Notes under the pieces: generated by a model
Databases searched by the model: none
Told to the model about the DNA's origin: nothing
The model's input: only the letters and a program-made list of their open reading frames with translations
Part shown: in pieces, positions 43,739 through 49,220 of the stretch
Layout: each line of letters begins with the position of its first letter
How positions within the stretch are numbered: position 1 is the stretch's first letter
Program-made: the position numbers and the translations under genes
Origin: Candidatus Caldarchaeum subterraneum
GTDB lineage: Archaea > Thermoproteota > Nitrososphaeria_A > Caldarchaeales > Caldarchaeaceae
Direction of reading: 5' to 3'
DNA length: 64,000 nucleotides
NCBI GenBank assembly: GCA_937934305.1
Contig: CALHAG010000014.1
Location: 1 to 64,000 of the forward strand

Positions 43739-45004
43739 TCAATAGCCTCCGCGATGCCGCAGAAAACCAGCCACGCCGCCGAAGGCTTTCCTGAACATCT
43801 CCCCCTCCTCATGCTCTGACGAAATCAGCTCAACACGGACCCCCATGTTCTCCGCTTCAGCTATCAGCTTGTCTATCAACAGAGTGGTCTCGGCGAGGGC
43901 CAGGGTTTGGTTCTGGCAGGTGGGGCATTTCTCCGCCAGCTTTTTCGGCACCTCTGTCTGAAGCTCTCCAGAATCTATTGTGAAAACGCTCTCGTAGCCG
44001 CAGTTTTGACACTTTATCTTAACCTCCAGCCTGTCAAGGTCCTCTGAGATGAGCAGAAGCTCAACCATGTTTTTGCGGAGAGCTTCACGGACCTGCTTCT
44101 CACCATACACCGCCAAGCCGTCGGCCCGTGTAGCCTCCGACATCAACCGCTGAATAAGCCGCTGCTCCTCAACCATCCTCACCTCCTTCAGAAAATCAGC
44201 AGACTTGGCCACGGCCTCGCGTACACCGCTTTCACCGGAATAGGATGTATCGACTATGTGGATTTTGTCGCGGAGAGAATAATGCAGATACTCGCCTTGC
44301 GCAAAGACCTCTTTAGTGGGTCCGGGGCCCGCCAGAATCACTCCCTTCAATTCCGGATACTGAAGAAAGATTTCGTTGGCTTTCTCGGCGACGCGTTTGT
44401 AGAATTCGTTGAGCGTCATTTCGCGGAGTCTCTCAAACCTTCTCGCCGACTGGCCGCCTGCGTGATGCTTCCCCGGCACACCGGAGGTGTATGTTTTGAG
44501 CTCTGATATGCTGCGTCCCTTCACCACAGCGACAGCGGCCTCCTCATTATCTATCACAATCACGCCGTAGACGGCCTTCTCCCTTAGAATGTCTTTAAGC
44601 GGCTCGGTGTGGAAGCGGCTGTCGCATCTGTAGAGGAAGGTGGTTATCGGCTCAGGTGGAATGATGTGGTAGACCTCTATTTTGCTTGTCTGGCCGCTGT
44701 TCTGAGGAATTGCGCCGCTGAATATGACGAGGCCCGTCGGCCCCGGGTTGTCGAAGAGCTTCAGCCGCTGAATCGCGCTTTCGATGGCGTCTTGGACGTT
44801 TTTCCGCGTCTGCTTCGACTTGATGTTCGCTGCGGTGGCATACTCCTGCCTGAGGTAGTTGATGACATCGGATATGGATTTGTCGGGTGGAACATACAGG
44901 GTGACAAGCTCCGTTCCCCGGCCCTCCAGCTTCTCGATGGTCTCCAGCAAACGCCTAAACTGGTAAAGCGAAACAGAATCCCGTCTCAACGACATAAACG
45001 ACAC
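43739..45004 (-). CDS. prf1: Peptide chain release factor aRF1
   Basis: A 421-residue eRF1/aRF1. The stop-codon-reading motif NIKS (TAANIKSKQTRKNV) is in domain 1, the GGQ motif that triggers peptide release in HHAGGQSARRF, and a zinc-ribbon-like CQNC...CPTC lies in domain 3. It reads all three stop codons with aPelota/aEF1A partners. The C-terminus is followed at once by a small hypothetical gene. Confidence 0.96.
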   Translation of the reverse strand: MSFMSLRRDSVSLYQFRRLLETIEKLEGRGTELVTLYVPPDKSISDVINYLRQEYATAANIKSKQTRKNVQDAIESAIQRLKLFDNPGPTGLVIFSGAIPQNSGQTSKIEVYHIIPPEPITTFLYRCDSRFHTEPLKDILREKAVYGVIVIDNEEAAVAVVKGRSISELKTYTSGVPGKHHAGGQSARRFERLREMTLNEFYKRVAEKANEIFLQYPELKGVILAGPGPTKEVFAQGEYLHYSLRDKIHIVDTSYSGESGVREAVAKSADFLKEVRMVEEQRLIQRLMSEATRADGLAVYGEKQVREALRKNMVELLLISEDLDRLEVKIKCQNCGYESVFTIDSGELQTEVPKKLAEKCPTCQNQTLALAETTLLIDKLIAEAENMGVRVELISSEHEEGEMFRKAFGGVAGFLRHRGGY

Positions 45005-45117: not shown

Positions 45118-45378
45118 TTAGCGTTTTGCTTCCACTAATCTCACCTCGACCCCCTCTTCAGACGCTGCTCTGGCTTGACCATCATCGGCAGTCATAAGCC
45201 TCATGAAGACTGCATCATAAACCGTTATTCCTCTATTCATAGCCACCTTTATAGCCTCTTTAACCGCCCTCTCCCTCTCCAACTCCTCAAGCTTATTGAT
45301 GATGCTTCTTCTAATCTCAACGTCTTCATACTCTTTCATCTTATCCTTAACCCGGTGGGGAACCTTGACGCTAGCCAC
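45118..45378 (-). CDS. VapB-like antitoxin head joined to a PIN-domain tail (toxin-antitoxin remnant)
   Basis: An 86-residue protein. Residues 1 to about 42 (MASVKVPHRVKDKMKEYEDV then an acidic/basic helix) look like a VapB-type antitoxin; residues about 43-86 (AMNRGITVYDAVFMRL, TADDGQARAASEEGVEVRLV) look like the last helices and strand of a VapC PIN toxin. The middle of both genes, including the toxin's first catalytic acids, is gone, as if by an in-frame deletion across a vapBC operon. It may be silent or a retained regulator. Confidence 0.55.
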   Translation of the reverse strand: MASVKVPHRVKDKMKEYEDVEIRRSIINKLEELERERAVKEAIKVAMNRGITVYDAVFMRLMTADDGQARAASEEGVEVRLVEAKR

Positions 45379-45488
45379 AGATAGTCCAGTGTATCGAAAA
45401 ATATGGGTTTAGTAAACCTTGCCTTCTCCCACCGATGCCCCCATTTCCCCGCTTCACGCCGCGTTCAAGGCTTTTTCCATAAACATTC

Positions 45489-45525: not shown

Positions 45526-48207
45526 TTGTCCCAGACCGTCGTCGAGGAAGTGAACTGGCATAGCTTGTCGGTGGAGGAGGTTGTCGCGCGGCTTGGCACA
45601 GACCCTGTAAACGGGTTATCGAGCGAAGAAGCATCGAGACGGCTGAAGACATACGGCCCTAACGAGCTCGAGCCGCCGAAAAAAGCCTCACCCATCAAAA
45701 TTTTTCTCAAACAATTCGCTAACATACTTATCGGGATACTTCTCATAGCCATTGTTATCTCGGCTTTTTTCGGCGAATGGGTTGACTCGCTTGTTATAGC
45801 GGTCATCGTCTTCTTTGTCGCGGTCGTCGGTTTTGTGCAGGAGTACCGGGCGGAGAAAACCCTCGAAGCTCTCAAGAAAATGCTCACCCAGTCTGTCACG
45901 GTGGTCAGAGATGGGAGAGAGCGTGAAGTCTCCTACAAAGAGCTTGTGCCAGGCGACATCGTCATCCTCACAACGGGAACAAAAGTGGCAGCGGACCTTC
46001 GATTGATTGAGTCAATCAACCTTCAAACAAACGAGGCGGCGTTGACGGGTGAATCATCACCTGTCCAGAAAAAGATTGACCCTCTGCCGAGTAACCTTGC
46101 ATTGGGCGACAGAGTAAACATGGCGTTTGCGGGAACGATTGTGACATACGGCCGTGGAAAAGGTGTTGTGGTTGCGACTGGGCAGCGGACAGAGTTCGGC
46201 AAAATAGCAGCGGCAGCCACAGCGGTAGAGGAGGAGAAAACACCGCTTGAGCAGAGGATGGATGAGATTGGGAAGAAGTTCGCGGTCATAGCCGCGGCCG
46301 CGATAGTGGTTATCTTCGCGGTGGAGCTAATCCGTGAATTGGTGTCGGGAGATTTTTCACTTAATTTCATTATCGAGGTTCTGCTCTTCGCCGTTGCTCT
46401 TGCTGTGGCAGTTGTTCCCGAAGCTCTTCCCGGCATAGTGACAGGCACACTCGCCATCGGAACAGGCATAATGGCTAGGAGAAACGCTCTCGTCAGAAGG
46501 CTGCCCGCCGTGGAGACACTCGGCTCCACACAGGTCATCTGCTTCGATAAAACAGGCACCCTCACAACCAACCAAATGACCGTCAGAAAAATCTACGCAG
46601 ACGACCAGCTCATCGACGTAGACACCTTGGAAAAACCCTCAACAACTCTCAAACTACTCCTCGACACAAGCGTCCTCTGCAGCGACGCCGTGGTCGAAAC
46701 TGTTGATGGAAGGGTGACCGTGAAAGGTGACCCAACGGAAGGGGCCTTGATTCTGTTGGCGAAGCGGCTTGGCTGGGATGTCGAGGTTCTGAGAAAAACC
46801 CATCCACGTCTGCATGAGATTCCGTTCACTTCAGAGCGGAAGATGATGACAACTTTCCACAAAACACAGAGCGGCGACATAGCAGGACACATGAAGGGCG
46901 CTGTCGAGGTTGTCCTACCCAAGTGCGACACCCTCTACAAACATGGAGAAAAGCATAGACTTGACGAACAGTCGAGAACCAAGATTCTCTCTGTTGCTGA
47001 GCAGATGGCCTCTTCGGGTTTACGTGTATTGGCTGTAGCCCATAAACCTGACGCTGGTGAAGGCTTTGAGGAGAGCGGGTTTGTTTTCTTGGGGTTGGTT
47101 GGGATGATGGACCCGCCGAGGCCCGAGGTCTATGACGCGGTAAAGAAAGCTCATGAAGCTGGCATCAGGACGGTGATGGTTACGGGGGACCACAAGCTCA
47201 CGGCCATAGCCATAGCACGTGAAGTCGGCATAATGAAGGAAGGAGACATGGTTCTAACAGGCGAGGAACTCGACAAGCTCTCGGACGAGGAGCTGGACAA
47301 AATAGTTGAACACGTGGTCGTCTACGCACGCATCTCACCCTTGCATAAGCTGAGGATTGTTGAAGCATGGAAGAGAAAGGGATACGTCGTCGCCATGACC
47401 GGGGACGGAGTAAACGATGCACCGGCGTTGAAGAGAGCTGACATAGGGGTCTCGATGGGCGTAACCGGGACAGATGTTGCGAAAGAGGCTTCGGACATCA
47501 TGCTCGCAGACGACAACTTCGCCACAATCGTCAAAGCCGTAGAGCTGGGCCGATGGATATACGGAAACGTCCGAAAATATCTCACCTATCTTCTTGAAGC
47601 AAACCTTGTAGAAGTCATTGTGATAACGGCGGTTTCTCTCTTCATCGCGGAGTTGCTGGGGCTGAGAGGTGAAGATACTTTGCCGCTTCTCCCAGTCCAC
47701 ATCCTCTACATTAACCTCGCCACCGACGGGCTACCTGCGATAGCGCTGGGGTTCGCTCCACCCGACCCCGACATAATGAAACGAAAACCGACACCTAGGA
47801 ACGAGCCCGTCTTTAACAAAGATGTGATAGCCATGCTTGCCACGATAGTTGCCGTGACCACGCCCCTCTACCTCATTGGCTACGTCACAGCAGTCCCCGA
47901 AGGCGTGGAATACGCGAGAACAAGACTCTTCCTCATGTTCATCGCCAACGAGCTCTTGCTGGCGCTGAGTTGCCGCTCCCTCGTATACACAAACCTCGAA
48001 GCAAAACCACACAAATGGCTGCTCATCGCCATCGCATGGGAAGTAACCCTCATCATAGCCATTCTCACAATCCCGGGAGCGGCCCAGCTGCTAAGCCTCA
48101 CAACACCGACCACAGCAGACCTAGCATGGATAATCGGAGGAGCCCTAATAGTCTACATCACCGTCGAAGCATCAAAAATAATCAGACGCAAGATGTTTAA
48201 AACGTGA
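45526..48207 (+). CDS. P-type cation-transporting ATPase (P2A, calcium-pump type)
   Basis: An 893-residue P2-type ATPase. Domains in order: N-terminal cation ATPase domain, first helices, actuator loop with LTGESSPV, PEALPGIVTGTLAIG in the fourth helix (PEGLP in most calcium pumps), phosphorylation site DKTGTLT, nucleotide-binding KGAVEVVL, GDGVNDAPALKRADIG, and the ion-binding NLATDGLPAIALGFAPP. It exports calcium, or possibly manganese. The PEALP variant is the only deviation noted. TTG start at 45526, probably leaderless. Confidence 0.95.
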   Translation: MSQTVVEEVNWHSLSVEEVVARLGTDPVNGLSSEEASRRLKTYGPNELEPPKKASPIKIFLKQFANILIGILLIAIVISAFFGEWVDSLVIAVIVFFVAVVGFVQEYRAEKTLEALKKMLTQSVTVVRDGREREVSYKELVPGDIVILTTGTKVAADLRLIESINLQTNEAALTGESSPVQKKIDPLPSNLALGDRVNMAFAGTIVTYGRGKGVVVATGQRTEFGKIAAAATAVEEEKTPLEQRMDEIGKKFAVIAAAAIVVIFAVELIRELVSGDFSLNFIIEVLLFAVALAVAVVPEALPGIVTGTLAIGTGIMARRNALVRRLPAVETLGSTQVICFDKTGTLTTNQMTVRKIYADDQLIDVDTLEKPSTTLKLLLDTSVLCSDAVVETVDGRVTVKGDPTEGALILLAKRLGWDVEVLRKTHPRLHEIPFTSERKMMTTFHKTQSGDIAGHMKGAVEVVLPKCDTLYKHGEKHRLDEQSRTKILSVAEQMASSGLRVLAVAHKPDAGEGFEESGFVFLGLVGMMDPPRPEVYDAVKKAHEAGIRTVMVTGDHKLTAIAIAREVGIMKEGDMVLTGEELDKLSDEELDKIVEHVVVYARISPLHKLRIVEAWKRKGYVVAMTGDGVNDAPALKRADIGVSMGVTGTDVAKEASDIMLADDNFATIVKAVELGRWIYGNVRKYLTYLLEANLVEVIVITAVSLFIAELLGLRGEDTLPLLPVHILYINLATDGLPAIALGFAPPDPDIMKRKPTPRNEPVFNKDVIAMLATIVAVTTPLYLIGYVTAVPEGVEYARTRLFLMFIANELLLALSCRSLVYTNLEAKPHKWLLIAIAWEVTLIIAILTIPGAAQLLSLTTPTTADLAWIIGGALIVYITVEASKIIRRKMFKT

Positions 48208-48209
48208 CC

Positions 48210-48743
48210 TCAGCCTTTCCCACGAGCAATATTTCTCGCCGCTGTCAAAATATGGTTAGCATGTTCAGGTTTTAGTTTGTGCTTTTTCTCAGCGAGTTGT
48301 TTTATAGCTGCCTCGATGTCAGCAACTTCAATACATCCCTGGTTTAGTGACTCCAGCAAAACGGTCCAAGTGTTCCAGACCCTTAAACCCATCAAGCGTG
48401 CAAGATTTGAAAGAACTCTTTCATCAACAAGAACTTCCGCCTTATTTTCTTTAGCCAAAAGAATCGTCTCCGCATCAACCAGTGAAATATTCTCTTGTTT
48501 CGCCAACTTTCTAGAGGCTATGACGAGATGTTTTGAAGGCTTTTCTACAATAATCCACCCCTCCTCTATTGCTTTTCCTATTATTTCTGCGTCGGCGTAA
48601 CCATGTTTCACTCCCATGTCATGTGCTTCTCTTTTCACACCTGGGGTAATGACCACCTGACTGAATAGCATCTTGAGAAGATGAAGCTTGTCAATCTGGG
48701 CCAAATGGATAAGTGGTCCGGCGTCAGAGACAACACGTGACAA
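48210..48743 (-). CDS. PIN-like nuclease toxin (DUF3368 type)
   Basis: A 177-residue PIN-fold protein: VVSDAGPLIHLAQIDKL with the first acidic residue, DAETILLAKENKAEVLVDERVLSNLARLMGLRV with the later acidic residues. The DUF3368 group commonly pairs with UPF0175 antitoxins, exactly as here: the antitoxin gene ends 7 bases upstream. It likely cleaves RNA when freed. C-terminal residues 140-177 form an extra helical tail. Confidence 0.85.
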   Translation of the reverse strand: MSRVVSDAGPLIHLAQIDKLHLLKMLFSQVVITPGVKREAHDMGVKHGYADAEIIGKAIEEGWIIVEKPSKHLVIASRKLAKQENISLVDAETILLAKENKAEVLVDERVLSNLARLMGLRVWNTWTVLLESLNQGCIEVADIEAAIKQLAEKKHKLKPEHANHILTAARNIARGKG

Positions 48744-48750
48744 AATGCCC

Positions 48751-49113
48751 CTACTCTACCTTGTATTTTATTTCGGCATCATCACCTGCATGGTTTGTCC
48801 ACCACTTCTCAAAACGTTTCAAATCCTTCTCCGTCAAATAGGCCCGAATACCCTCGATATCCCAGTTAATCGGTACACCTTCCCTTTCCAAAATTTCCAG
48901 AAATTCACGGAGCGAAACCCCCAGAATTTCCGCCGCACGACCACTCGTCAACTTTTCCCGCCGATAAAGCTCAACAACCCTTCTCCGCATCCCTTCTTCA
49001 ATCAGCATTTTGATCATAGTGGAGCGGTCGAAATCTTCAACACGCCTCAGCTCTTCAAGCCTTCTTAAATCCCGCCTGGAGAGACGTAAAGTCACAACCG
49101 ATGTCTTTTTCAT
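48751..49113 (-). CDS. UPF0175/DNA-binding antitoxin of the PIN pair
   Basis: A 120-residue protein with an N-terminal ribbon-helix-helix-like segment (VVTLRLSRRDLRRLEELRRVEDFDRSTMIKMLIEEG) and the UPF0175 helix-turn-helix (YRREKLTSGRAAEILGVSLREFLEIL). It would bind and silence the downstream PIN protein and repress its own operon. Two direct repeats sit just upstream of its ATG at 49113. Confidence 0.85.
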   Translation of the reverse strand: MKKTSVVTLRLSRRDLRRLEELRRVEDFDRSTMIKMLIEEGMRRRVVELYRREKLTSGRAAEILGVSLREFLEILEREGVPINWDIEGIRAYLTEKDLKRFEKWWTNHAGDDAEIKYKVE

Positions 49114-49121
49114 TAACTATG

Positions 49122-49139
49122 GTAATACAATGTAATACA
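49122..49139. repeat. Direct repeat GTAATACA, 10 bases apart; candidate toxin-antitoxin operator
   Basis: GTAATACA at 49122-49129 and 49132-49139, 9 bases before the antitoxin ATG. The second copy also forms an imperfect palindrome ATGTAATACAT. Confidence 0.45.
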
Positions 49140-49220
49140 TAAGGTTTGTCGCCACAGTTTTATGGTGAGTGGGTGTTTTGACGCTTGTGTTTTTATGGCG
49201 GCTGTTTGCTTTTTTGCTGA

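Follow-up and report, generated by a model that had tools for sequence, protein, structure and literature searches.

The question raised by positions 45118..45378 (minus strand) of the window, the whole stretch of 64,000 nt of Candidatus Caldarchaeum subterraneum DNA that was analysed, is whether an 86-codon open reading frame with a VapB-like beginning and a VapC-like end specifies a working protein or is the remains of a toxin–antitoxin (TA) operon. The frame begins at a GTG and its product is VASVKVPHRVKDKMKEYEDVEIRRSIINKLEELERERAVKEAIKVAMNRGITVYDAVFMRLMTADDGQARAASEEGVEVRLVEAKR. The evidence points to a vapB'-'vapC pseudogene in what is probably a hot-spring archaeon, the recently decayed relic of a vapBC module that was inserted here and later broken by a repeat-mediated deletion, and the probability of this reading is put at about 0.88.

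The presence of a VapB head and a VapC tail, proposed in the preliminary description, is borne out by profile matches and by comparison with an intact pair in a genome of the same genus (G002). The VapB profile NF050799 matches residues 3–48 of the fusion (E = 6.9e-8, 32.9 bits), with coverage of only profile positions 3–51 of 69, and the score falls below the curated cut-off of 60 because the VapB part is truncated. Residues 1–48 share 77% identity with the G002 VapB (E about 1e-13) and residues 31–86 share 70% with its VapC (E about 6e-16), the two matches lying in separate genes and in the correct order, an agreement far too strong to be due to chance. When the frame is aligned codon by codon with three intact loci, VapB codons 3–22 and 28–48 fall at 45256..45378, and the remainder, 45118..45255, corresponds to codons 85–101 and 110–138 of VapC, matching intact PIN proteins of 137 aa (both minus strand). 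Missing from the fusion are VapB residues 23–27 and 49–75, and VapC residues 1–84 and about 102–109. The first of these gaps deletes VNWPE, the NWPEE-type turn of the RHH helix-turn-helix, and the second removes the C-terminal tail (codons 49–75), the part of VapB proteins that binds the toxin. The lost N-terminal half of the PIN domain carried the Asp of IDAS and the Glu of KEVSN, while the aspartates of YDA and TAD are still present; all of these are presumably active-site residues. A Pfam search gave no match of PF01850 to the ORF at E ≤ 10, and searches with the fusion against Pfam and the PDB returned nothing useful.

Comparison with intact vapBC loci in relatives, which had been suggested as a check, revealed a complete pair at the very same site in G002 (G002:C1:829408-830035). 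There, a VapB of 75 aa (87.6 bits against NF050799) and a VapC of 137 aa (E = 3.4e-9 against PF01850) are specified by adjacent genes that overlap by 14 nt, and strand and order are the same as in the window. The pair lies between the same two genes, which we take to specify an archaeal release factor (aRF1/eRF1-type; 43739..45004, minus strand, 93% DNA identity to G002) and a P-type cation ATPase (45526..48207, plus strand, 90% DNA identity), and for about 9 kb the sequence on the two sides runs collinear with G002. The site is empty in three other genomes of the family (G001, G003 and G005), where the flanking genes are near neighbours and no vapBC intervenes, the exact spacing in G001 and G005 being an estimate as the blast matches start within the flanking genes. 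The same vapBC pair is also intact in G005 (Archaeon HR01, HRbin01) and G018 (HR02, HRbin02), at other, unrelated genomic places; the G002 pair is 90–93% identical in DNA to that of G005 and 86–89% to that of G018. Since the modules are this similar at unrelated places while the genes flanking the window site are only 68–73% identical to those of G005, the pattern would fit horizontal spread of the module. The intact syntenic copy in G002 lends strong support to the suggestion that the ORF is a fossil.

By far the largest change is the loss of 322 bp, which begins at codon 49 of vapB, spans the overlap of the two genes and ends at codon 84 of vapC. A deletion across vapBC had been anticipated, and this part of the proposal stands; that it was in-frame does not, because 322 is 1 mod 3, which equals the shift of +1 between the overlapping genes, and so two different reading frames were joined. 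At the junction (45247..45264, minus strand), defined by repeat spacing and alignment, one copy of a direct repeat remains (GTTGAAGAGGCYATT / GAAGAGGCYATWAAG in relatives), and the sequence looks VapB-like up to ATAAAG and VapC-like beyond. In all three intact operons the top-scoring direct repeat has its copies exactly 322 nt apart (GTTGAAGAGGCTATT / GTTGAAGAGGCCATT in G002), tied in G005 with one other repeat. The G002 repeat score of 12 is within the range of shuffled sequences (maximum 13), so that the weight of the repeat lies in the agreement of its spacing with the deletion length and in its recurrence in three operons, not in the score itself. Slippage or recombination between the repeats would be the simplest account of the loss. 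In both G002 and G005 the repeat copies encode EEAI in both proteins, each in its own frame, and for this reason the fusion is in register and readable.

Scored by alignment to G002, three coding deletions, of 15, 322 and 24 nt, separate the window from the intact pair, and the promoter and start codon are damaged as well. All of the following lie on the minus strand. A 13-bp deletion at 45400..45401 has taken half of a TATA-like TTTATAA and one GTTTACC motif from the promoter region, and the ATG that starts vapB in the relatives is replaced by CTA (45382..45384). The 15-nt deletion in vapB, which removed VNWPE, the turn between the RHH helices, is at 45318..45319, and the 24-nt deletion in vapC (8 codons, about IVFSKGKN) is at 45203..45206. 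A near-palindrome, GGTTTACTAAACC, is retained at 45406..45418; it is also found upstream of intact vapB and may be an operator. The GTG of the fusion is VapB codon 3 and could serve as a translation start. A scan for sigma-70 promoters was negative, the model being ill-suited to archaea. With an intact syntenic orthologue in G002 and disabling deletions in the window copy, the ORF is classed as a pseudogene, and it is an unusually clear fossil of an ordinary kind.

These changes suggest a history in which a mobile vapBC module would have inserted between the ATPase and release-factor genes in an ancestor common with G002, and then decayed in the window lineage. The 322 nt may have been removed by slippage or recombination involving a pair of short direct repeats, of which vapB and vapC hold one copy each, with EEAI at both copies putting the fusion automatically in register; smaller deletions probably cost the promoter, the VapB fold and VapC some of their sequence, and the ATG was lost. 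What remained would be a readable frame of 86 codons, probably without function.

One argument against pure decay is that the frame is still open. The 15- and the 24-nt deletion both preserve it, for which the odds by chance are about 1 in 9, and it has acquired no stop codon; the GTG that could still serve as a start and the operator-like near-palindrome that remains also count against that reading. However, in simulations the frame survives 13 random substitutions with P of 0.74 and 25 with P of 0.57, so that selection is not needed to explain it, and the ORF was noticed through being open. The window branch has 4, 3 and 6 changes at the first, second and third codon positions (G002 has a similar 3, 2 and 5), too few to separate neutral from constrained evolution.

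The kept frame also speaks for the idea that the remnant was exapted as an anti-addiction factor or a small protein binding DNA, which would still recognise the VapB operator or would bind VapC partners through its PIN tail. The operator-like near-palindrome and most of the basic head have been retained, and the genome holds four further matches of the VapB_Sulfo type, one of which exceeds the curated cut-off, but vapB has lost its ATG, the promoter is incomplete, the turn and the C-terminal part of VapB are missing, and a conserved R and W of the head have been replaced. Structure prediction, which had been proposed as a further check, goes in the same direction with limited force: AlphaFold2 models of single sequences, of low to modest confidence (mean pLDDT 63–66), give the intact VapB a helix at 10–18, a turn and a helix at 27–55, and the fusion one helix from 8 to 48, and this predicted change from a helix-turn-helix to one continuous helix is only supportive. 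When 101 relatives, 398 genomes of the phylum and the GTDB r220 contigs were searched with the 86-aa protein, no second genome carried the fusion, and the matches were to separate VapB or VapC genes, none of them spanning the whole of it; full-length orthologues aligning to an antitoxin family, which the preliminary description had named as refuting its reading, were likewise looked for and not found. Exaptation is accordingly considered unlikely, and the earlier suggestion of an immunity-type protein that keeps the antitoxin's DNA binding is not supported, given the absence of the toxin-binding region and VNWPE, the damage to start codon and promoter, and the confinement of the fusion to one genome among those searched. 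A more specific version, which has the fusion protein made from the GTG and retained as a small repressor that binds DNA at related vapBC loci, or as a VapC-tail decoy acting on them, is quite improbable; if true, it would mean that a repeat-mediated deletion can lead straight from a TA operon to one regulatory protein.

An error of assembly or binning in the draft contig could be imagined, as the 322-nt deletion sits at a repeat and so at a possible point of mis-assembly, but one mis-join does not produce four separate deletions together with scattered substitutions and an altered start codon, and the flanks remain collinear with G002, which makes this very improbable. That head and tail share one open frame might recall a TA fusion family with both domains working in one chain, a reading that is scarcely credible with the N-terminal PIN half and its acidic residues missing, no PIN match in Pfam and no other member among the 398 genomes of the phylum that were searched.

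Other TA loci of this genome and its relatives provide some context. A second damaged vapBC is present at G000:C2:56318-56760 (L007 1229-1671), where a VapB-like frame precedes a VapC that a stop shortens to about 63 aa, and this damaged vapC (C2:56590) is counted in favour of decay. Another vapBC (L053 1444-2107, G000:C2), apparently intact and with a VapB of the same family, has the same overlapping ...REDRDSH / VIVID junction. Between these two loci lies a gene (L053 101-1201) for a protein rich in coiled-coil repeats of the KLWEEVKSLREGQN type, a shorter relative of which occurs near vapBC in G018 (L030 4728-5435, minus strand). Within the window, just past the ATPase gene, is a second TA-like pair (48225-49161, minus strand), presumably a UPF0175-like and a PIN/DUF3368-like protein; both frames are open, and their protein identity to the G002 copies is about 68%, versus about 90% DNA identity for the neighbouring genes.

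With an empty site, an intact insertion and a decayed copy at one locus in one archaeal family, and with the deletion repeat still visible, the locus offers a snapshot of TA turnover. Removing the antitoxin tail and the catalytic half of the toxin together, in a single deletion, would be a plausible exit from addiction. The main use of the case is as a caution to annotators against naming the 86-codon ORF an antitoxin.

Set beside the intact vapBC of G002 (NF050799 TA_anti_VapB_Sulfo with PF01850 PIN), the window copy aligns codon by codon in head and tail but has no ATG start and an incomplete promoter. The pairs of HRbin01 (G005/L043) and HRbin02 (G018/L044) belong to the same subfamily as that of G002, but are intact and located elsewhere. 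Among the literature matches, which treat TA pseudogenes in general terms, no title or abstract describes a vapB–vapC deletion fusion of this kind. TA pseudogenes and solo derivatives are mentioned in comparative surveys (PMC2701414, PMC2781298), which likewise include degraded or shortened TA genes, some of them in a conserved neighbourhood; what differs at the window locus is that both the repeat at the deletion and an intact copy at the same site can be seen.
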